A stretch of DNA of 64,000 bases from Croceicoccus sp. (GTDB lineage: Bacteria; Pseudomonadota; Alphaproteobacteria; Sphingomonadales; Sphingomonadaceae): positions 1 to 64,000 of the forward strand of contig NZMY01000029.1 in assembly GCA_002694745.1 (NCBI GenBank), read 5' to 3'. The notes beneath the pieces are model-generated. The model was given only the letters and a program-made list of their open reading frames with translations. It was not told where the DNA came from and searched no databases. The translations under genes and the position numbers were made by a program. Positions 51,792 through 60,985 of the stretch are shown here, piece by piece (within the stretch, counting starts at the first letter, position 1; every line of letters begins with the position of its first letter).

Positions 51792-54700
51792 TCAATGGAA
51801 ATCCCGAGAAGGCGGTAGGATCCGGGGCACGATCCGGACATCGCGCGGATGCCGTCCCTGGAACCCGCATTCGCGGTTGCCGGCGGGCGGCGGCTCCCAC
51901 GGATCGATCGGCAGGATCGCACCGTCGGGTGCGCTGCCATGCGGAGCGGCAACCGCGGGGTCGTCCGCCCCTTCGCGCAGATTGTCGCGCGGGTTCATCT
52001 TGGCGGGGAGCGGGCTCTGCACATGATCGGCGCGGGCCAGCACCGTCGGCATCATGTCGTCGGACAGAGCATGCAGCGCGTGATTGGCATCGACCATGTG
52101 CTGCACGATCACATGAACCACGTCATCGTCATATTCGACCCGGCCGCGCACTTCCATCAGCCGCGCGCCCATCACCACCTTGCGGTATTTCTCCTTCAGA
52201 TGCGGCCAGACGACCAGATTGATGACGCCGGTCTCGTCCTCCAGCGTGATGAAGCATACGCCCTTGGCGCTGCCGGGGCGCTGACGGATCAGCACGACGC
52301 CCGAAACCTGCACGTTGGAACGGAACTTGCGGTCGCGCAGGTCGCAGGCGCGGATGAAACCGCGTTCGGCAAGTCCGGCGCGCAGGAAAGCCATCGGATG
52401 CGCCTTCAGCGAGAGGCGCATGGTCTGGTAATCCGCCACCACTTCCTCGGACAGGGGCATCGCGGGAAGACGGGCAGGCGCAGTCTCCGCCCCCTCGTCG
52501 CGGGCCCTTGCCGCCTCGAACAAGGGCAGCGGCGGGGCCGATACGATGGAACGCGCATCCCATAAAGCCTGCCTGCGCGACAATCGCATAGAGCCGAAGG
52601 CATCGGCATGGGCCAGACGCTCGATATGCGCAGCCGGAATGCCCGATCTTTCGCGCAAGGCAGCCACATCGGGAAAGGCGCCGTGATCCTCGCGCGCGGC
52701 GATCAGGCGGGCCGCGACATGTTCGGGCAGGCCGTCCACCTGCCGCAGGCCCAGCCGCAATGCGACGCCATCGCGTTCCGCAGGTTCCAGCGTGCAATCC
52801 CATTCCGACAAGTTCACATCGGCAGGCCGCACCTCCACCCCGTGCTCCGCCGCGTCGCGCACGATCTGTGCAGGCGCATAGAACCCCATCGGCTGCGAAT
52901 TCAGCAGCGCGCAGGCGAAGGCGGCAGGGTAATGGCATTTCAGCCAGCTCGACACATAGACCAGATGAGCAAAGCTGGCGGCGTGGCTCTCGGGAAAGCC
53001 ATATTCGCCGAAACCGCGGATCTGGTTGAAGCAGCGCTGCGCGAATTCGCGGTCATAGCCGCGCTCCACCATGCGTTCGACCATCATGTCCTGAAGCTCG
53101 TCCACCATGCCGCGCGATCGGAAGGTCGCCATCGCCTTGCGCAACCGGTTGGCTTCCGCCGACGAGAACTTGGCGGCATCCAGCGCGATCTTCATCGCCT
53201 GCTCCTGAAAGATCGGCACGCCCAGCGTGCGGCCAAGTATGCTGGACAGCTCATCGGGCGGCCCGTGCGCAGGGCCGGGAGCGGGGATTTCCACGCGTTC
53301 CTCTCCGCGCCGGCGCTTGAGATAGGGATGCACCATGTCGCCCTGAATGGGGCCGGGTCGCACGATGGCGACCTGAATCACAAGATCATAGAACTCGCGC
53401 GGGCGCAGGCGCGGCAGCATGTTCATCTGGGCCCGGCTCTCCACCTGGAACACGCCCAGCGAATCCCCGCGCCGCAGCATGGCATAGGTCTCGGGATCCT
53501 CGCGCGGGACACTGGCCAGCGTCAGCGCGCGGCCATGGTGATCGGCCACTTCGTCGAGGCATTTCCGGATGCAGGTCAGCATGCCCAGCGCCAGCACGTC
53601 GACCTTCAATATGCCCAGCGCCTCGATATCGTCCTTGTCCCATTCGATGAAGCTGCGATCGGGCATCGCGCCATTGCCGATCGGCACCGTCTCGGTCAGC
53701 GCGCCCTGCGTCAGGATGAAGCCGCCGACATGCTGCGACAGATGGCGCGGCATGCCGATCATCTGCTGGGTAAGCGCCAGCACCCGCCGCAGATGCGGAT
53801 CGCTGATGTCCATGCCGGTCTCTGCCACATGCGCCTCGCCGATCTCGCGTCCCCAGCCGCCCCAGACGGTGCCTGCCAGCTTGGAGGTCACATCCTCGGA
53901 CAGGCCCATCGCCTTGCCCACTTCGCGGATCGCCATGCGTGGGCGGTAATGGATGACGGTGGCGCACAGGCCGGCGCGGTGGCGCCCGTATTTCTCATAG
54001 ATATGCTGGATCACTTCCTCGCGCCGCTCATGCTCGAAATCGACGTCGATGTCGGGCGGCTCCTTGCGCTCTTCGGAAATGAAGCGGTCGAACAGCAGGG
54101 CGTGGCGCGCGGGATCGACCGCCGTGATCTCAAGGCAATAGCACACCGCCGAATTGGCGGCAGAGCCGCGCCCTTGGCACAGGATCGGCGGATCGACGCT
54201 GCGCGCGAAGTCGACGATGTCCTTGATGGTCAGGAAATAGCGGGCCAGGTCCAGCTTCTCGATCAATGCCAGTTCGCGCGCAATCGTGGCGCGGATATGA
54301 TCGGGCACGCCGGCGGGATAATCCTCTGGCGGATAGCGGCGCGCTGCCCCCTCCCATGTCAGGATTTCCAGATGCTGCTGCGGCGTGCGGCCCTGCGGAT
54401 AGATCTCCTCGGGATATTCATAGCGCAGCTCGTTCAGGCTGAAGCGGCACCTGTCCGCCAGATCCCGCGCGGCGCGTATCGCATGGGGCCAGCGGGCGAA
54501 CAGGCGCATCATTTCTTCCGGCGCCTTCAGATGCCGTTCGGCATTGGCGTGCAGCAGATAGCCGGCCTTCGCCACGGTGGTCTTGTGCCGGATCGCGGTC
54601 ATCACGTCCTGCAGCGGACGGCGGTCGGGCGCGTGGTAATGCACGTCATTGGTCGCCAGGATCGTCATCCCGTTGTCCCGCGCCAGCGCGTTCAGCCGTT

Positions 54701-55373
54701 CGATCCGGGCGATATCGTCGCCGCAATACAGATGGCTGGCCGCAAGATGGCGCAAGGATGGCAGCATTGCGCCCAGATGCGGCACAAGTCTGGCAAAACT
54801 CAGCCGCCTTTGCGCCGGTTCTGGCGCGCTGCCGTCCAGCGGAACGACATTGCCGGGAAGGCTGACCGTGATGTCCGCATCCAGATCCGGCGGCGGCAGG
54901 GCGATCAGGTGCAGCGCCCCTCCTCCATCGTCGGCGGCATGGGCGGCCAACATCGCCAGATCGATCTCGCATATGCCCTTGTCCTGCCAGTCGCCGGACA
55001 GGGTTTGCATGCGCCCCCGGCTGATCAGGCGCGACAGCCGGCCATAAGCCGCGCGTGTTTCGGGATAGGCGAGGAACGCGAGGCCCTCCACGGTCTCGAT
55101 CCGCGCGCCGATAACGGGGCGCAGACGCAGGGTTTCCGCCTCGGTATGGATGCGCACCACGCCTGCCAGCGAATTGGCATCGGCTATCCCGATCGTGTCA
55201 TAGCCGAGTGCACGCGCCGTCGTGACCAGATCGACCGCATCCGACGCGCCGCGCAGGAAGGTAAAGCACGACACCAGCCCCAGCTCGACGAAAGGAGCTC
55301 TTTCGGGCGTGTCTATCGCATCGGGATCGACATCGATCCGGCGGCGGTCGGGCGTAAGCGGGGCGTCGGGCAT
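51792..55373 (-). CDS. dnaE2: Error-prone DNA polymerase III alpha subunit, DnaE2
   Basis: A 1193-residue C-family polymerase for translesion synthesis. An N-terminal PHP domain (about 28-290, FVELGLVSCFTFLRGASDAVDL) is followed by the polymerase core with the catalytic aspartates in PPDIDVDFEHERREE and the GRGSAANSAVCY motif. Helix-hairpin-helix and OB domains are in the last third (VSGVVLIRQRPGSAKGVCFITLED). The DnaE2-specific C-terminus lacks the usual tau-binding tail. It acts with ImuA and ImuB in SOS mutagenesis, and lies 137 bp after udgX in the same direction. Confidence 0.96.
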   Translation of the reverse strand: MPDAPLTPDRRRIDVDPDAIDTPERAPFVELGLVSCFTFLRGASDAVDLVTTARALGYDTIGIADANSLAGVVRIHTEAETLRLRPVIGARIETVEGLAFLAYPETRAAYGRLSRLISRGRMQTLSGDWQDKGICEIDLAMLAAHAADDGGGALHLIALPPPDLDADITVSLPGNVVPLDGSAPEPAQRRLSFARLVPHLGAMLPSLRHLAASHLYCGDDIARIERLNALARDNGMTILATNDVHYHAPDRRPLQDVMTAIRHKTTVAKAGYLLHANAERHLKAPEEMMRLFARWPHAIRAARDLADRCRFSLNELRYEYPEEIYPQGRTPQQHLEILTWEGAARRYPPEDYPAGVPDHIRATIARELALIEKLDLARYFLTIKDIVDFARSVDPPILCQGRGSAANSAVCYCLEITAVDPARHALLFDRFISEERKEPPDIDVDFEHERREEVIQHIYEKYGRHRAGLCATVIHYRPRMAIREVGKAMGLSEDVTSKLAGTVWGGWGREIGEAHVAETGMDISDPHLRRVLALTQQMIGMPRHLSQHVGGFILTQGALTETVPIGNGAMPDRSFIEWDKDDIEALGILKVDVLALGMLTCIRKCLDEVADHHGRALTLASVPREDPETYAMLRRGDSLGVFQVESRAQMNMLPRLRPREFYDLVIQVAIVRPGPIQGDMVHPYLKRRRGEERVEIPAPGPAHGPPDELSSILGRTLGVPIFQEQAMKIALDAAKFSSAEANRLRKAMATFRSRGMVDELQDMMVERMVERGYDREFAQRCFNQIRGFGEYGFPESHAASFAHLVYVSSWLKCHYPAAFACALLNSQPMGFYAPAQIVRDAAEHGVEVRPADVNLSEWDCTLEPAERDGVALRLGLRQVDGLPEHVAARLIAAREDHGAFPDVAALRERSGIPAAHIERLAHADAFGSMRLSRRQALWDARSIVSAPPLPLFEAARARDEGAETAPARLPAMPLSEEVVADYQTMRLSLKAHPMAFLRAGLAERGFIRACDLRDRKFRSNVQVSGVVLIRQRPGSAKGVCFITLEDETGVINLVVWPHLKEKYRKVVMGARLMEVRGRVEYDDDVVHVIVQHMVDANHALHALSDDMMPTVLARADHVQSPLPAKMNPRDNLREGADDPAVAAPHGSAPDGAILPIDPWEPPPAGNRECGFQGRHPRDVRIVPRILPPSRDFH

Positions 55374-55510: not shown

Positions 55511-56941
55511 TCACGCCAGCGCCTCCAGCCGCGCGGCGACGGCGGCCAGGTCTTCGCCAAACAGGCGCGTCTGTTCCTCGCGCGCGGCCCCTTCCAGGCG
55601 GAGCAGATAGGACGGGTGCGCGGTCACCCACAGCTCGCTGCCATCCTCCAGCTCGATCGGCTTGCCCCGCGCCTTGGTGATCGAAACCGTCTTGCCCAGC
55701 ATGGACCGCGCCGCACTGGCCCCCATCGCCAGCACGAGGCGCGGCTTCACGATCGAGCGCTCGGCCTCTACCCACCAGCGGCAGATGTCGATTTCCTTGG
55801 CGGCGGGCGACTGGTGCAGGCGGCGCTTGCCGCGCTGCACATATTTGAAATGCTTGACCGCATTGGTGACATAGGCGGCCTTGCGGTCGATCCCCACCTG
55901 TTCGAGATGCACGTCCAGCAATTGCCCGGCGGGGCCCACGAACGGGCGGCCCTGCAGATCCTCGTTATCGCCGGGCTGTTCGCCCACGATCATCAGCGGG
56001 GCGCCCGCGGGCCCCTCGCCCATTACCGCCGTGTTGTGCAGTTCACCGATCGGGCAGCGGGCACAGGCATGAATCGCCTTGTCGACCGCGTTCAGCGTTT
56101 CGGGCCGCTCTTCCTCATCCATCGCACCTGCCGATACCATCGCCGCCTCTCGCGCCTGCGCGCCCGCGACGAGTTCGGGAATGAGCTGCGCCTCGGGCAT
56201 GTTCTTCCAGTACTTGCGGGGCATTTCCTTGAGCATGGCCCCGATCTTCAAACGCGCCGGATTGAAAATGGATGCGTAATAGCCGCGCCACATCTCCTCG
56301 ACCGGATCGCCCGTAGGCGCATCGGCGCGCGTGGCCGGGGGGCCTTCGCGCAGCGTCTCGCCGTCCCAGTGCAGGCTGCCGCGCGGGGTCAGGATCGACC
56401 AGCGCATATTGGCAAAGCGGCGCGTGAAGAACCCCGCGTTGTGGCGCAGGATGTGGTGGAACGGTTCGAACCAGGCGACGAAATATTCGCCCTCCTCATG
56501 CTCGACCTCGCGAAAGCGCAGGAAGGCGCGCATCTTGTGAATGTCGCGGCGGACCGCGCGCGCCATGTCGGCCATCGCTCGGATGTCGGCATCGGCCGCA
56601 TCCTCGATCAGCCGCGGTTTCGACTGCAGCCGCCACAGCACGCGATAGAGCAGGCCAAAGCGTTCCGGATCGGAATGCATGATGACCGTCTTCGCGATTT
56701 CCATGAAGCGGCGCGATACGCGCGGCTGCGCGGCGTCCCTGTCGGGCACGGGCAGGCGGCGGTCGCCATGGGTGAACAGATTGCCCGCCGGGCCGCCCGG
56801 TTCGGACCATGCGATGCGGTCGGGCGGCACGTCGGCCATGACCATGCGCCGCGCATGATCGCGCCATTCGGCGAAATCGTCCGGCGCGGCCATCGGCACC
56901 ACGTGATAGGCGCCCAGCCTGACATGCTGAAGCGCCGTCAT
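55511..56941 (-). CDS. udgX: UdgX family uracil-DNA-binding protein fused to DUF4130/TIGR03915 domain
   Basis: A 476-residue fusion. Residues about 1-240 match the radical-SAM-associated repair domain (DUF4130, PERFGLLYRVLWRLQSKPRL, EEGEYFVAWFEPFHHILRHN). Residues about 275-476 are a family-4-like uracil glycosylase of the UdgX type: CARC at 293-296, GEQPGDNED at 320-328, the UdgX-specific R-loop KRRLHQSP at 372-379 and HPS at 442-444. In mycobacterial UdgX the loop histidine (here H376) bonds covalently to the abasic sugar. It overlaps the radical-SAM gene by 4 bases. Confidence 0.92.
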   Translation of the reverse strand: MTALQHVRLGAYHVVPMAAPDDFAEWRDHARRMVMADVPPDRIAWSEPGGPAGNLFTHGDRRLPVPDRDAAQPRVSRRFMEIAKTVIMHSDPERFGLLYRVLWRLQSKPRLIEDAADADIRAMADMARAVRRDIHKMRAFLRFREVEHEEGEYFVAWFEPFHHILRHNAGFFTRRFANMRWSILTPRGSLHWDGETLREGPPATRADAPTGDPVEEMWRGYYASIFNPARLKIGAMLKEMPRKYWKNMPEAQLIPELVAGAQAREAAMVSAGAMDEEERPETLNAVDKAIHACARCPIGELHNTAVMGEGPAGAPLMIVGEQPGDNEDLQGRPFVGPAGQLLDVHLEQVGIDRKAAYVTNAVKHFKYVQRGKRRLHQSPAAKEIDICRWWVEAERSIVKPRLVLAMGASAARSMLGKTVSITKARGKPIELEDGSELWVTAHPSYLLRLEGAAREEQTRLFGEDLAAVAARLEALA

Positions 56942-58185
56942 GCCGCGAACAGGTCCAGTTGCCGCCCCGCATCGGGGGCGACCAGCGCCTTGAGATCGGC
57001 CCGGTCGGTCAGCGTCACGGGCCGCCAGTCGGCCGTGACGATGAAGGGCCGCAGCTTGGCCACCGACACGGTCAGCTTTGCGATATCGTCCAGCCGCAGG
57101 GTGCGATGCCGCCGCGCGCTGAGGATCTGGCCCACCCCGCGCGTACCCAGCCCCGGCACGCGCAGCAGCGCCTCTTTCGGCGCACGGTTCACGTCGACGG
57201 GAAAGCTTTCGCGGAACTTCAGCGCCCACGCCAGCTTGGGATCGATGTCCAGTGGCAGCATGCCGTCCACACCGGCAGCCTGCGCCACCTCGCCCGGCGA
57301 ATAGCCGTAGAAGCGCATCAGCCAGTCCGACTGGTATAGCCGGTGCTCGCGGATCAGGGGCGGACGCTTCAGCGGCAGCACCGCGCTGGCATCAGGAATG
57401 GGGCTGAAGGCCGAGTAATAGACACGCCGCAGCCGGTGCTGGCCGTAAAGCGCGCTGGCCCGGTTGACGATATCGGCATCGCTGGCTCCGTCGGCACCCA
57501 CGATCATCTGGGTCGACTGGCCCGCGGGCGCATAGCGGGGCGCATGGCGAAAGCGCTTCTTCGCGTCGCGCGCCTCGGTGATGGCATCGTTCATCGTGCC
57601 CATCGCGCCATCGATGGTCTGCGCGTTCTTGTCGGGCGCCAGCCGCACCAGCCCGGCCACGGTGGGCAGTTCGACATTGATCGACACCCGGTCGGCGTAC
57701 AGCCCCGCGCGGCGCACGATCTCTGCATCGGCCTCGGGAATGGTCTTGAGGTGGATGTAGCCGCGGAAATCATGCTCCTCGCGCAGGATGCGCGCGGTTT
57801 CGACCAGCTGCTCCATCGTATGGTCGGAATTGCGGATGATGCCCGAAGACAGGAACAGCCCCTCGATATAATTGCGCTTGTAGAACGAGAGCGTCAGATC
57901 GGCCACTTCCTGCGGCGTGAAGCGCGCCCGCTCCACGTTCGAGCTCTTGCGGTTCACGCAGTAGTGGCAATCGAAGATGCAATGATTGGTCAGCAGCAGC
58001 TTGAGCAGCGAGATGCAGCGCCCGTCGGGCGCATAGGCGTGGCAGATGCCCATCCCCTCGGTGGACCCGACGCCCTTGCCCCCGCGGCTGTCGCGTTTGT
58101 TCGTGCCCGACGATGCGCAGGACGCATCATATTTGGCGGCATCCGCCAGGACTTTCAGCCTTTCGATTACGGTCTTCTGTATCAT
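56938..58185 (-). CDS. Putative DNA modification/repair radical SAM protein
   Basis: A 415-residue radical-SAM enzyme of the TIGR03916 type. The cluster cysteines are C69, C73 and C76 (CIFDCHYC). A helix-hairpin-helix DNA-binding region follows in the last quarter (APKEALLRVPGLGTRGVGQIL), and the protein ends QLDLFAA (QLDLF at 409-413), a consensus beta-clamp-binding peptide. Its reaction is unknown; homologues are paired with the DUF4130 protein, here fused to UdgX and overlapping by 4 bases. A LexA box lies 13 bases before the ATG, with AGGAG between. Confidence 0.9.
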   Translation of the reverse strand: MIQKTVIERLKVLADAAKYDASCASSGTNKRDSRGGKGVGSTEGMGICHAYAPDGRCISLLKLLLTNHCIFDCHYCVNRKSSNVERARFTPQEVADLTLSFYKRNYIEGLFLSSGIIRNSDHTMEQLVETARILREEHDFRGYIHLKTIPEADAEIVRRAGLYADRVSINVELPTVAGLVRLAPDKNAQTIDGAMGTMNDAITEARDAKKRFRHAPRYAPAGQSTQMIVGADGASDADIVNRASALYGQHRLRRVYYSAFSPIPDASAVLPLKRPPLIREHRLYQSDWLMRFYGYSPGEVAQAAGVDGMLPLDIDPKLAWALKFRESFPVDVNRAPKEALLRVPGLGTRGVGQILSARRHRTLRLDDIAKLTVSVAKLRPFIVTADWRPVTLTDRADLKALVAPDAGRQLDLFAA

Positions 58186-58198
58186 GCGCGACTCCTGC

Positions 58199-58213
58199 GT
58201 TCACTATATGTTC
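58199..58213 (-). promoter_or_regulatory. LexA (SOS) box of the radical-SAM/udgX/dnaE2 operon
   Basis: GTTC-ACTATAT-GTTC on the plus strand (GAAC-N7-GAAC on the minus) is an exact alphaproteobacterial LexA operator, directly upstream of the radical-SAM gene. Confidence 0.85.
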
Positions 58214-58561: not shown

Positions 58562-60181
58562 TCAGCCGAATATTCCCTGCAGAAACCATTCGGGCGCGCC
58601 GCCCCGGCCGTCGCCTGCAAGACCGAGGCGATAGATCCAGAAACGCCGCCCCTCGCCATCCTCGATCCGGTAGTAATCGCGCAGCCTTGCCGCCCCCTTT
58701 TCGCGCCACCATTCGGGCGCGATGCGTTCGGGACCCTCGGCGCGGGCCACATCGTGCAGCCCGCCGCGCCAGCGAAAACGCTGAGGCAGTCCGTCGGGGG
58801 TGGCATAGAGAACGGAAATCAATTCCGCCTTGTCCAGCAGCTTGAGCGGGCGGGCATGGAAGGCAAAACTCTCCTGCGCGGCCGGCAGGCTGTCGAGCGG
58901 CGCCTGCCAGCGCTGCGCGCGTTCGGGCACATGGCTGGCATGCGGCACCGGACGGCGCACGGCCTGCGGGCCCAGCCGCGCGGCCAGACGGTCGACACAG
59001 GCTGCAAGGCTGGTGCCATGCTGCTGCGCGGACGCCTCGAGATCCCCCTGCGCCAAGTCCAGCGGCTCTGCCCAGCGAACCACCAGCCGCGCCATCTCTA
59101 TCCCAAGCCCCGCATCGATCGTCGCGATGCGTTCGGCGAACAGGCGGCAGATATGGGCCCCGTCGCGCGTGGCGGCGGCCAGTTCGAGCGTGCGGACCGC
59201 GACTTCGCCGTCGACCCGCCAGCATGCGAATTCAAGCCTGCGCGCGCCTTCCCCCCTGCCTTCCAGTTCGCGCATCATGGCGGCGGCCAGATCGGCCAGC
59301 ACCGTTTCCAGCAAGGGCAGATGGCGGATCGGTTCCATCAGGCGCAGCTGCACCATCGCCGGCGATTTGCCGATCACCGGAAGCATGGGTTCGGGGACGA
59401 GCCCGATCATCTGGTCGCGCCGCATCAGCGGATTGGCCATGGCCGAACGGCGGTTGCGAAAGCGGCGCGACAGGGCGTCGCGGCCGATGTCGTCGAGATC
59501 GCCCAGACGCTTCAGCCCCAGACGGCGCAGCACCGTCAGCACATCGTCGTCCAGCCGCAGCGCGGCCACCGGCAATTGCGCAAGACAGGCCGCGATATCG
59601 CCATCTTGTGGCAGGATCGCGCCACCCTTGTGCCCCGATGATGCCGCGAAATGCGCCAGCGCCCATGCGGCCCCGGCGGTGGGCGCGATCGCCAGCCGTA
59701 CCGTCAGGCCGCGCCGTTCGAACACGCGCGACGCATCGGCCAGCAGGCGCGGCTCTCCGCCGAACAGATGCGCCGCGCCGGTGATGTCGACGATCACGCC
59801 GTCGGGCGGATCAAGCGCGCTCCATGGTCCCCAGCGCTGCGCCCAGACGGCCAGCCTTTCCAGAAAGGCGAGATCGCCCGCGGGATCGGCAGGCCGGACG
59901 TCCAGCGCGGGACACAGGGCGCGCGCATCGGCCAGCATGGTGCCGGTCCGCACGCCCGCAATTTCCGCTGCGCGATTGGTGGCGGTGATGCGGGGGCCAT
60001 GCGCCGTTTCGCAGATCAGCGCGACGGGGGTGTCCGCCGCCGCGTCCGCCCCTTCAGCCTGCCGCCAGCGATCGATCGCCAGCCGCGCGCACCAGATCGC
60101 CAGCACGCGCCGGTTGGGCGTGCGGTCGCTGGTGTGCGGCATCGTGATCGATCGGGCGGGCGGAGAGGATCGATTCCCCAT
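58562..60181 (-). CDS. imuB: ImuB, Y-family polymerase-like mutasome subunit
   Basis: A 539-residue Y-family homologue without polymerase activity in its family. Palm/finger blocks are LAIDRWRQAEG and DPPDGVIVDITGAAHLFGG (about 120-140), and a helix-hairpin-helix segment is TVLRRLGLKRLGDLDDIGRDAL. The C-terminal ImuB-C region ends RIEDGEGRRFWIYRLGLAG and EWFLQGIFG. ImuB bridges DnaE2 to the beta clamp and ImuA. ATG 60181 has GGAGGGGG upstream; ATG 60142 is an alternative. It overlaps the end of imuA by about 130 bases in another frame. Confidence 0.9.
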   Translation of the reverse strand: MGNRSSPPARSITMPHTSDRTPNRRVLAIWCARLAIDRWRQAEGADAAADTPVALICETAHGPRITATNRAAEIAGVRTGTMLADARALCPALDVRPADPAGDLAFLERLAVWAQRWGPWSALDPPDGVIVDITGAAHLFGGEPRLLADASRVFERRGLTVRLAIAPTAGAAWALAHFAASSGHKGGAILPQDGDIAACLAQLPVAALRLDDDVLTVLRRLGLKRLGDLDDIGRDALSRRFRNRRSAMANPLMRRDQMIGLVPEPMLPVIGKSPAMVQLRLMEPIRHLPLLETVLADLAAAMMRELEGRGEGARRLEFACWRVDGEVAVRTLELAAATRDGAHICRLFAERIATIDAGLGIEMARLVVRWAEPLDLAQGDLEASAQQHGTSLAACVDRLAARLGPQAVRRPVPHASHVPERAQRWQAPLDSLPAAQESFAFHARPLKLLDKAELISVLYATPDGLPQRFRWRGGLHDVARAEGPERIAPEWWREKGAARLRDYYRIEDGEGRRFWIYRLGLAGDGRGGAPEWFLQGIFG

Positions 60182-60911
60182 GGCCCCCTCCATCACAGGT
60201 GGCGAGTTCCGGCCTGATCCACCATGCACCGGGACGCAGGCCGCGTGCGCGGAACAATTCCCCGCGCCAGCCCGGCAGGCCGGGCGCCTGCGGATTCCAG
60301 CGCGGCGCATGCGACATGGCAGAGCGCACGTCCCACCGCATGCGCGCCGCCCCCAGATCGCGCCTTGCATCGAGGCGCACCAGCCATAGCGGCACCTGGT
60401 GGCGTTCCGCCGCCAGCACCAGCCGGCGCGAGGCGGTGAAATCCAGCGCCCGGGGATTGCCCGCGATCTCTCCCACCACGAAGGCAAGGTCGCGGCAGCG
60501 CACGCCTTCCTCCAGAGCGAACAGCGCATCCTCTGCGGTCCTGGCGGTGACATGGATCAGCCGGTGCGCAAGATCGCGCGGCAGGCCGGGAAGGAAAGGA
60601 CGACCGCCCGTGAGGATGGCCGCCGCGTCCTGAACCCACAGGAAGGCCCGCTCGTCATCGGTTTCGGTCAGGGCCTGCTGATCCCCCGGCCTTGGCGCGG
60701 ATCGCGCCAGTTCCAGCGCCAGCGCCGCCCCTGCCCCTTCGTCGCCCCGCGCAAAGATCTCTCCCGCCCCGCGAAAGGCGATGTCCGGGCTCCACCCCCG
60801 CGTCGAAGCGCCGTCCTTTCCATCCAGCCAGCGCGAACCCGCCAGTTCGGCAGCCGGAAACAGCCCTTCGGGAAGGGCGGCATCGGCATGATCGGAACCC
60901 GGAACAGCGAT
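60054..60911 (-). CDS. imuA: ImuA-like SOS mutasome protein with no canonical start codon
   Basis: The frame runs from a stop at 60975-60977 to TAA/TGA at 60054 and encodes a normal RecA/SulA-like ImuA sequence. It includes HADAALPEGLFPAAELAG, EDALFALEEGVRCRDLAFVV, and RALDFTASRRLVLAAERHQVPLWLVRLDARRDLG. No ATG, GTG or TTG occurs before GTG 60503, which would delete more than a third. ATC at 60911 (IAVPGSD) follows AGGAG by 7 bases and is the best candidate; ATT 60956 or a sequencing/frameshift error are alternatives. The C-terminus overlaps imuB. It is led by an exact LexA box. Confidence 0.62.
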   Translation of the reverse strand: MAVPGSDHADAALPEGLFPAAELAGSRWLDGKDGASTRGWSPDIAFRGAGEIFARGDEGAGAALALELARSAPRPGDQQALTETDDERAFLWVQDAAAILTGGRPFLPGLPRDLAHRLIHVTARTAEDALFALEEGVRCRDLAFVVGEIAGNPRALDFTASRRLVLAAERHQVPLWLVRLDARRDLGAARMRWDVRSAMSHAPRWNPQAPGLPGWRGELFRARGLRPGAWWIRPELATCDGGGHGESILSARPIDHDAAHQRPHAQPARAGDLVRAAGDRSLAAG

Positions 60912-60970
60912 GACAAAACTCCTGCTTGCAGTCGGATAAGAGGGCGAATCGGGAATCGGAAACGCCCTGT

Positions 60971-60985
60971 GTTCTTATTATGTTC
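60971..60985 (-). promoter_or_regulatory. LexA (SOS) box of imuA-imuB
   Basis: GTTC-TTATTAT-GTTC is an exact LexA operator; on the minus strand it contains CATAAT, a good -10 element, so LexA would cover the promoter. It lies 60 bases before the proposed imuA start. Confidence 0.85.

Follow-up and report, generated by a model that had tools for sequence, protein, structure and literature searches.

Where does a radical S-adenosylmethionine (SAM) enzyme do its work, when its family is one for which we found no reaction in the literature? The question was raised by a 64,000-nucleotide stretch of DNA from Croceicoccus sp. (contig NZMY01000029.1, positions 1 to 64,000), here called the window, which encodes a radical-SAM protein of the TIGR03916 family, P0001. 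A sequence-only reading of the window had pointed out that this protein ends in QLDLFAA, had taken QLDLF for a motif that binds the β sliding clamp, and had suggested that the enzyme may be recruited to the replisome ahead of bypass by the error-prone polymerase DnaE2. Our analysis suggests that P0001 is quite probably an SOS-induced enzyme whose target is damaged DNA and which the β clamp keeps in place. That its tail binds the clamp we regard, from the sequence comparisons, as very likely. The features of the gene and its protein are as follows.

56938–58185, minus strand: gene for the TIGR03916 radical-SAM protein P0001, 415 aa, identified by profile match
56947–56961, minus strand: clamp-binding-type motif Q409-L-D-L-F413, followed by AA and the stop codon, seen in the translation, the alignment and the AlphaFold model
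57034–57207, minus strand: putative helix-hairpin-helix DNA-binding part, about residues 327–384, from weak profile matches
57958–57981, minus strand: radical-SAM CxxxCxxC motif, C69/C73/C76, kept in 211 of 212 homologues, the remaining row being a gap
58015–58119, minus strand: stretch with C23, C48, H49 and C57, candidate ligands for a second metal or iron–sulfur (Fe-S) site
58199–58213, unstranded: LexA-type box GTTCACTATATGTTC before the radical-SAM gene, 13 bp upstream of the ATG, a GTTC-N7-GTTC direct repeat

The match to TIGR03916 (rSAM_link_UDG) scored 559.2 bits, compared with a cut-off of 343.5, and spanned residues 7–398, making P0001 a full-length member of the family. Its C-terminal end reads APDAGRQLDLFAA and then stop, the last residues being GRQLDLFAA. 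The terminus was as the sequence-only reading had it, and the gene was found to lie on the minus strand, which that reading had not given. The radical-SAM cysteines also fell where they had been placed, at residues 69–76 (C69xxxC73xxC76).

Homologues were collected by a family search of 196 genomes of the order, 82 of which had a TIGR03916 protein above the cut-off, and 299 genomes of the phylum, 53 of which did, these two sets overlapping. A scan of named genomes added 80, kept from at least 590 relatives. Extra records came from plasmids (6 of 158), a phage collection (4 of 10) and viral contigs (34 pattern matches, of which two were relatives, one incomplete), and TIGR03916 relatives were found on plasmids of other phyla as well. 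A Caulobacter vibrioides genome that served as a control also gave a match to TIGR03916. The resulting 252 loci encoded 213 distinct proteins, of which one was cut at a contig end and was dropped, leaving 212. The strict pattern was defined as Q[LMFIV]xL[FLIMW] within the last 22 residues. Background open reading frames (ORFs) were taken from the same loci as frames running from stop to stop over 200 aa or more, which are not verified genes.

The strict motif was present in 184 of the 212 homologues, compared with 12 of 4631 background ORFs (4 of 1517 among those of at least 400 aa), and shuffled tails gave a mean of 3.7 and a maximum of 12 in 212. In the available text of PMC11139829, the clamp motif is defined as Q-φ-x-[LM]-[FL] or Q-φ-x-[LM]-x-[FL], with the consensus QL(S/D)LF; 181 of the 212 homologues conformed to this definition, compared with 21 of 2540 background frames (last 50 residues). 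When the proteins were aligned without anchoring on the motif, the column of Q409 held Q in all 212, position 412 held L in 202 and position 413 held F in 164. Close and distant homologues alike retained the motif. The conservation of a terminal QLxLF among TIGR03916 proteins, on which the sequence-only reading had staked its proposal, was therefore found, and the pentapeptide was not missing from close relatives, the outcome that reading had named as counting against itself.

On a tree of 210 of the proteins (two were dropped), Q409 underwent no changes and L412 underwent six, compared with 35–78 changes in five linker columns; the sub-class of the motif switched 28 times and the motif was never lost. 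The linker preceding the motif differs in length between homologues. Synonymous codons vary, with 34 codon strings encoding 82 instances of QLELF and 12 encoding 13 of QLDLF. These codon counts bear on an explanation at the level of the DNA, by which the 3′ end of the gene is constrained because it holds the ribosome-binding site or the start of an overlapping downstream gene. The window does have an ATGA overlap, and so do 76 of the 212 homologues. However, the strict motif was kept in 114 of the 136 homologues without the overlap, as it was in 70 of the 76 with it, and the many synonymous strings contradict a DNA-level cause, which we rejected and to which we assign a negligible probability. 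A free linker, a stable motif, varied codons and independence of the overlap together point to selection acting on the tail peptide.

Selection on a peptide could also reflect a degradation tag that clears the SOS protein. ClpXP-type tags end in AA, as do P0001 and 67 of the 212 homologues. However, column 415 was a gap in 124 of the 212 and A in 69, while the Q and L columns of the motif were retained as described above, and many homologues end exactly in QLSLF or QLSLL. A degradation tag as the main cause of tail conservation was rejected on these grounds, since the AA varies while the motif is kept, and we consider it highly improbable; the AA could coexist with the motif as a lineage add-on.

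In the AlphaFold model of P0001, which had a mean predicted local distance difference test (pLDDT) score of 84.1, residues 409–415 scored below 50, and the tail is thus predicted to be disordered, as expected of a free docking peptide. P0001 therefore combines what we looked for in a β-clamp client, namely a motif in an accessible tail (QLDLF, 409–413) and conservation of this motif above background. The genome from which the window comes has a DnaN gene. The same genome contains 14 distinct radical-SAM frames (16 matches, including two pairs that share a frame), 12 of which have no terminal motif. The other carrier besides P0001 is a protein of the PA0069 family (440 bits), which ends exactly in QLALF and has a LexA-type box just upstream.

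Locus L263, 1228–1242 and 1267–2364, on contig C28 of the same genome: LexA-type box GTTCTTGTTTTGTTC and PA0069-family gene, identified by profile match

Among 80 distinct relatives of this protein, the strict motif, again within the final 22 residues, was kept by 53, while a loose form was present in the last 26 residues of 78 and in the last 60 of all 80. A LexA-type box lay upstream of 56 of the 80; among all 817 windows of 355 bp at these loci, upstream ones included, 57 had a box. There was no useful blastp similarity between P0001 and the PA0069 family (best E 0.31), and the 81 PA0069-family loci, with about 1 kb of flanks, gave no match to TIGR03915 or UdgX.

This second family is informative on the possibility that the P0001 tail docks on a protein other than the clamp, for example its TIGR03915(-UdgX) partner, which is encoded directly downstream.

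55511–56941, minus strand: gene for P0002, a fusion of TIGR03915 and UdgX, 476 aa, with an ATGA overlap with the radical-SAM gene

TIGR03916 proteins pair with TIGR03915 proteins, often fused to UdgX, and 159 of 179 homologue loci, like the window, had such a partner no more than 600 bp away. P0002 matched TIGR03914 with 313 bits and TIGR03915 with 219 bits. The TIGR03914 match and the KRR[IL]H loop, with H376 invariant in 45 aligned sequences, identify the UdgX part, which also gave the best Foldseek match (UdgX 6ajp, E 7e-20). A sequence search of the PDB with the TIGR03915 half found no match, and UdgX dominated the structural matches of the fusion as a whole. The close pairing would suit docking between the two proteins. 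However, QLDLF matches the published clamp consensus exactly, most of the homologous tails fall within the published tolerance, and the PA0069 family has the same kind of tail at loci with no match to either partner domain. We therefore consider docking on the partner quite improbable and continue with the clamp as the likely target.

A stronger rival is raised by the next gene downstream.

51792–55373, minus strand: dnaE2, error-prone polymerase P0003, identified by an NF004225 match of 1376 bits

The order of genes was as the sequence-only reading had described it, with udgX and dnaE2 downstream of the radical-SAM gene. That reading had proposed that a lesion may be modified just before DnaE2 bypass, which would make the tail a device of the DnaE2 mutasome in particular, and had asked about the motif especially where dnaE2 is adjacent. 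In addition to the adjacency in the window, DnaE2 scored above the cut-off in 79 of 82 genomes of the order that have the radical-SAM protein, compared with 52 of 114 that do not, and LexA-type boxes stand before both units. However, only 38 of the 152 loci with wide flanks had dnaE2 within about 7 kb, and the strict motif was equally frequent at loci lacking a nearby dnaE2 (103 of 113) and at those having one (34 of 38; 151 loci counted). At a Bacteroides locus (QLLLDF) and a Pusillibacter locus (QLSLF), the radical-SAM gene with the motif near its end and TIGR03915 were both present, and no dnaE2 or UdgX was annotated within the 13-kb stretch. Because the motif is equally common without dnaE2, the tail belongs to the enzyme and not to the mutasome, which, to judge from these loci, is a frequent but unneeded companion of the tailed enzyme. 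A DnaE2-specific tail is thus unlikely. Of the earlier interpretation, a C-terminal clamp-type motif behind a LexA-type box stands at the level of sequence, while the special tie to DnaE2 bypass does not.

The control of the gene was judged from its LexA-type box and from a second one farther upstream.

60971–60985, unstranded: second LexA-type box GTTCTTATTATGTTC, before imuA-imuB, also a GTTC-N7-GTTC repeat

We take the GTTC-N7-GTTC direct repeat to be the alphaproteobacterial LexA site. The window contained four of these repeats, where 1.5 were expected, and two of them lay outside the two SOS-type units, so the box alone is weak evidence. The box before the radical-SAM gene, which the earlier reading had already noted, is solid because it recurs: a box was found at most 300 bp upstream in 176 of the 209 homologue loci with enough sequence, compared with 88 of 7084 control windows from the same loci. 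The 33 loci without a box include those from Xanthomonas, Bacteroides, Clostridia, Gemmatirosa and Acinetobacter, as well as some alphaproteobacterial ones (L116 and L132, for example); other bacterial groups use other LexA sites. With a conserved GTTC-N7-GTTC repeat just upstream, as in a member of the SOS (LexA) regulon, the radical-SAM protein is apparently SOS-induced, and the region looks like two neighbouring SOS units, imuA-imuB and, beside it, radical-SAM–udgX–dnaE2.

In the sequence of events that we propose, cleavage of LexA would switch on the radical-SAM protein, TIGR03915-UdgX and dnaE2 together. The helix-hairpin-helix of the radical-SAM enzyme would probably grip DNA, and its variable linker, ending in QLDLF, would allow the tail to dock in the peptide pocket of the clamp, bringing the enzyme to clamps at stalled forks or gaps. 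The TIGR03915(-UdgX) partner would perhaps be brought to the clamp through the radical-SAM enzyme. The radical reaction would then reverse or edit a base lesion before or alongside synthesis by DnaE2. The choice of substrate and the order of events in this scheme are guesses.

Several observations weigh against this reading. The sampling was heavily alphaproteobacterial, with at most nine of the 212 homologues from outside Pseudomonadota: two from Bacteroidaceae, two from Clostridia, one from Gemmatimonadota and four faecal records. The tails of 31 of the 212 fall outside the definition in the available text of PMC11139829, having near forms such as QMALW, QASLF, QFELF, QLSLI and QLGFGF. A loose pattern was matched by all 212 in the last 45 residues, but it was also matched by 480 of the 4631 background ORFs, so the complete score is weak evidence. 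The helix-hairpin-helix, which the sequence-only reading had placed near the end of the protein, is supported by weak profile matches to ComEA helix-hairpin-helix chains (E 0.016) and to RuvA chains; it is plausible in the C-terminal part of P0001, short of proof. The second metal site discussed below falls partly inside residues 24–50, which were poorly modelled by AlphaFold. Finally, 47 of 161 fused TIGR03915-UdgX partners, the one in the window among them, have a loose QxxL[FL] within their final 35 residues.

The last point led us to reject the notion that the UdgX partner is wholly devoid of clamp look-alikes; as a control, the partner holds for the strict form alone, which was found near the end of one of the 161 fusions (last 35 residues) and, in a smaller set, in one of the 45 partners among those listed of 49 selected. 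The look-alike in the window, QTRLF at residues 457–461 of the fusion, lies inside a confidently modelled helix (residues 451–475), unlike the radical-SAM tail, and was not counted as a tether for this reason; it could represent a second motif confined to one lineage, or simply helix. It is the radical-SAM tails that carry the argument, and narrowing the partner control left our estimate unchanged.

The sequence also gave some indication of the chemistry. C23, C48, H49 and C57 were each kept in 210 of the 212 aligned homologues; one of the two exceptions was a gap and the other was a divergent protein encoded by a plasmid of Gemmatirosa kalamazoonensis (L145), in which the radical-SAM cysteines and a QLSLW motif persist but all four of these residues are substituted at once. 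TIGR03915 was not found beside the radical-SAM gene at this locus. From this pattern, the four residues probably form a second metal site, most likely an auxiliary Fe-S cluster. A Foldseek search placed the P0001 model nearest biotin synthase (BioB), MiaB, HydE, RimO and lipoyl synthase (LIAS), at a best E of 2.6e-6 and query template modelling scores of approximately 0.3–0.4; these enzymes and viperin were among the best 50 of 70 structural matches (E ≤ 0.001). The likeness to MiaB and RimO is one of fold only (7mjx, E 3.3e-6), since neither NCBIfam nor Pfam gave a match to a methylthiotransferase family. Spore photoproduct lyase was not among the same best 50 of 70 matches at E ≤ 0.001 and its family model did not match P0001, so an assignment as an enzyme of that type was dropped as unsupported by the fold search. 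The substrate is likely a DNA base or adduct.

Upstream of the radical-SAM gene lies the other SOS-type unit.

58562–60553, minus strand: imuB open frame, with IMS and DUF6504 matches, the start perhaps at 60142
60054–60915, minus strand: imuA-like frame, start codon uncertain, with an NF033429 match at E 3.5e-5 and 23.8 bits (cut-off 150)

The strict pattern had suggested that ImuB of these loci is without a clamp motif. This was rejected when alignment revealed hexapeptide forms: the window ImuB has QESFAF, and many relatives have QGELAF-like hexapeptides and not the QLPLWG form. ImuB and the radical-SAM enzyme may thus draw on the same clamps, in competition or jointly.

The immediate surroundings of the radical-SAM gene varied in two further ways. 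In five loci (L244, L247, L083, L081 and L231), a hemerythrin-like gene was located between the radical-SAM gene and TIGR03915-UdgX; the L244 copy matched Pfam PF01814 (E 1.7e-16) and the other four were alike by eye. Such a protein might guard the oxygen-sensitive radical enzyme. In two other loci, L211 and L091, the radical-SAM gene has the tail motif, and TIGR03915 or UdgX was not found in the locus.

Parts of this picture have counterparts in the literature. We take COG4277 to be the TIGR03916 family. This family is described as a putative DNA modification/repair radical SAM, and P0001 agrees with it in its full-length match and in its pairing with TIGR03915/UdgX; the published accounts, in the portions available, mention no clamp-binding tail, second cysteine set or known reaction. 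According to the accessible text of PMC8565304, an operon of uracil DNA glycosylase (UDG, COG1573) and COG4277 under SOS control has been reported for Bacteroidetes, and an SOS-regulated UDG-based repair system is cited for Verrucomicrobia and Alphaproteobacteria. Radical SAM proteins are listed in LexA regulons in the available parts of PMC9380542 and PMC7739468, and the DNA-repair genes that a table of PMC8307549, as far as available, assigns to reconstructed and minimal genomes include one for a "putative DNA modification/repair FeS-containing radical SAM protein", which may belong to TIGR03916. In the available text of PMC3765255, DUF4130 is linked to SplB-like radical-SAM photolyases and uracil DNA glycosylases.

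The PA0069/Rv2578c family, which is presumably SplB-like, resembles P0001 in having a LexA-type box and a clamp-type tail, but is a separate family. Spore photoproduct lyase is a radical-SAM CxxxCxxC enzyme that acts on DNA; it has this motif in common with P0001, but P0001 matched neither its family nor, among the structures listed, its fold. Enzymes of both tailed families are probably kept where replication or repair takes place. More broadly, clamp-tethered radical-SAM repair could be a general arm of the SOS response, in which TIGR03916 and PA0069 deliver oxygen-sensitive radical chemistry to stalled replication or repair sites and reverse lesions directly, the TIGR03916 enzyme using two metal sites for a new DNA chemistry; we put this forward tentatively, as a possibility that falls somewhat short of an even chance. 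That a second radical-SAM family with LexA-type boxes has this tail as well hints at a rule and not a curiosity, and brings within reach the question of which lesions these enzymes repair.

The words "radical SAM" occur zero times in the main text of the clamp review PMC11139829, as far as available, and no mention of a clamp motif in a radical-SAM protein was found in the literature searched, whose coverage of subscription journals was thin and partly limited to incomplete texts. Among the closest known systems are the established clamp clients. In the available text of the same review, the E. coli clients Pol II (QLGLF), Pol IV (QLVLGL) and Pol III α (QVELEF) have the same consensus and the same C-terminal position as the P0001 motif. 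According to the accessible part of PMC10421592, the 352-QLPLWG-357 peptide of ImuB fits this consensus as well, and mycobacterial ImuB needs its clamp motif to form foci. These clients are polymerases or relatives of polymerases, unlike P0001, and the conserved clamp motif that it shares with them tells us where the TIGR03916 enzyme probably works.

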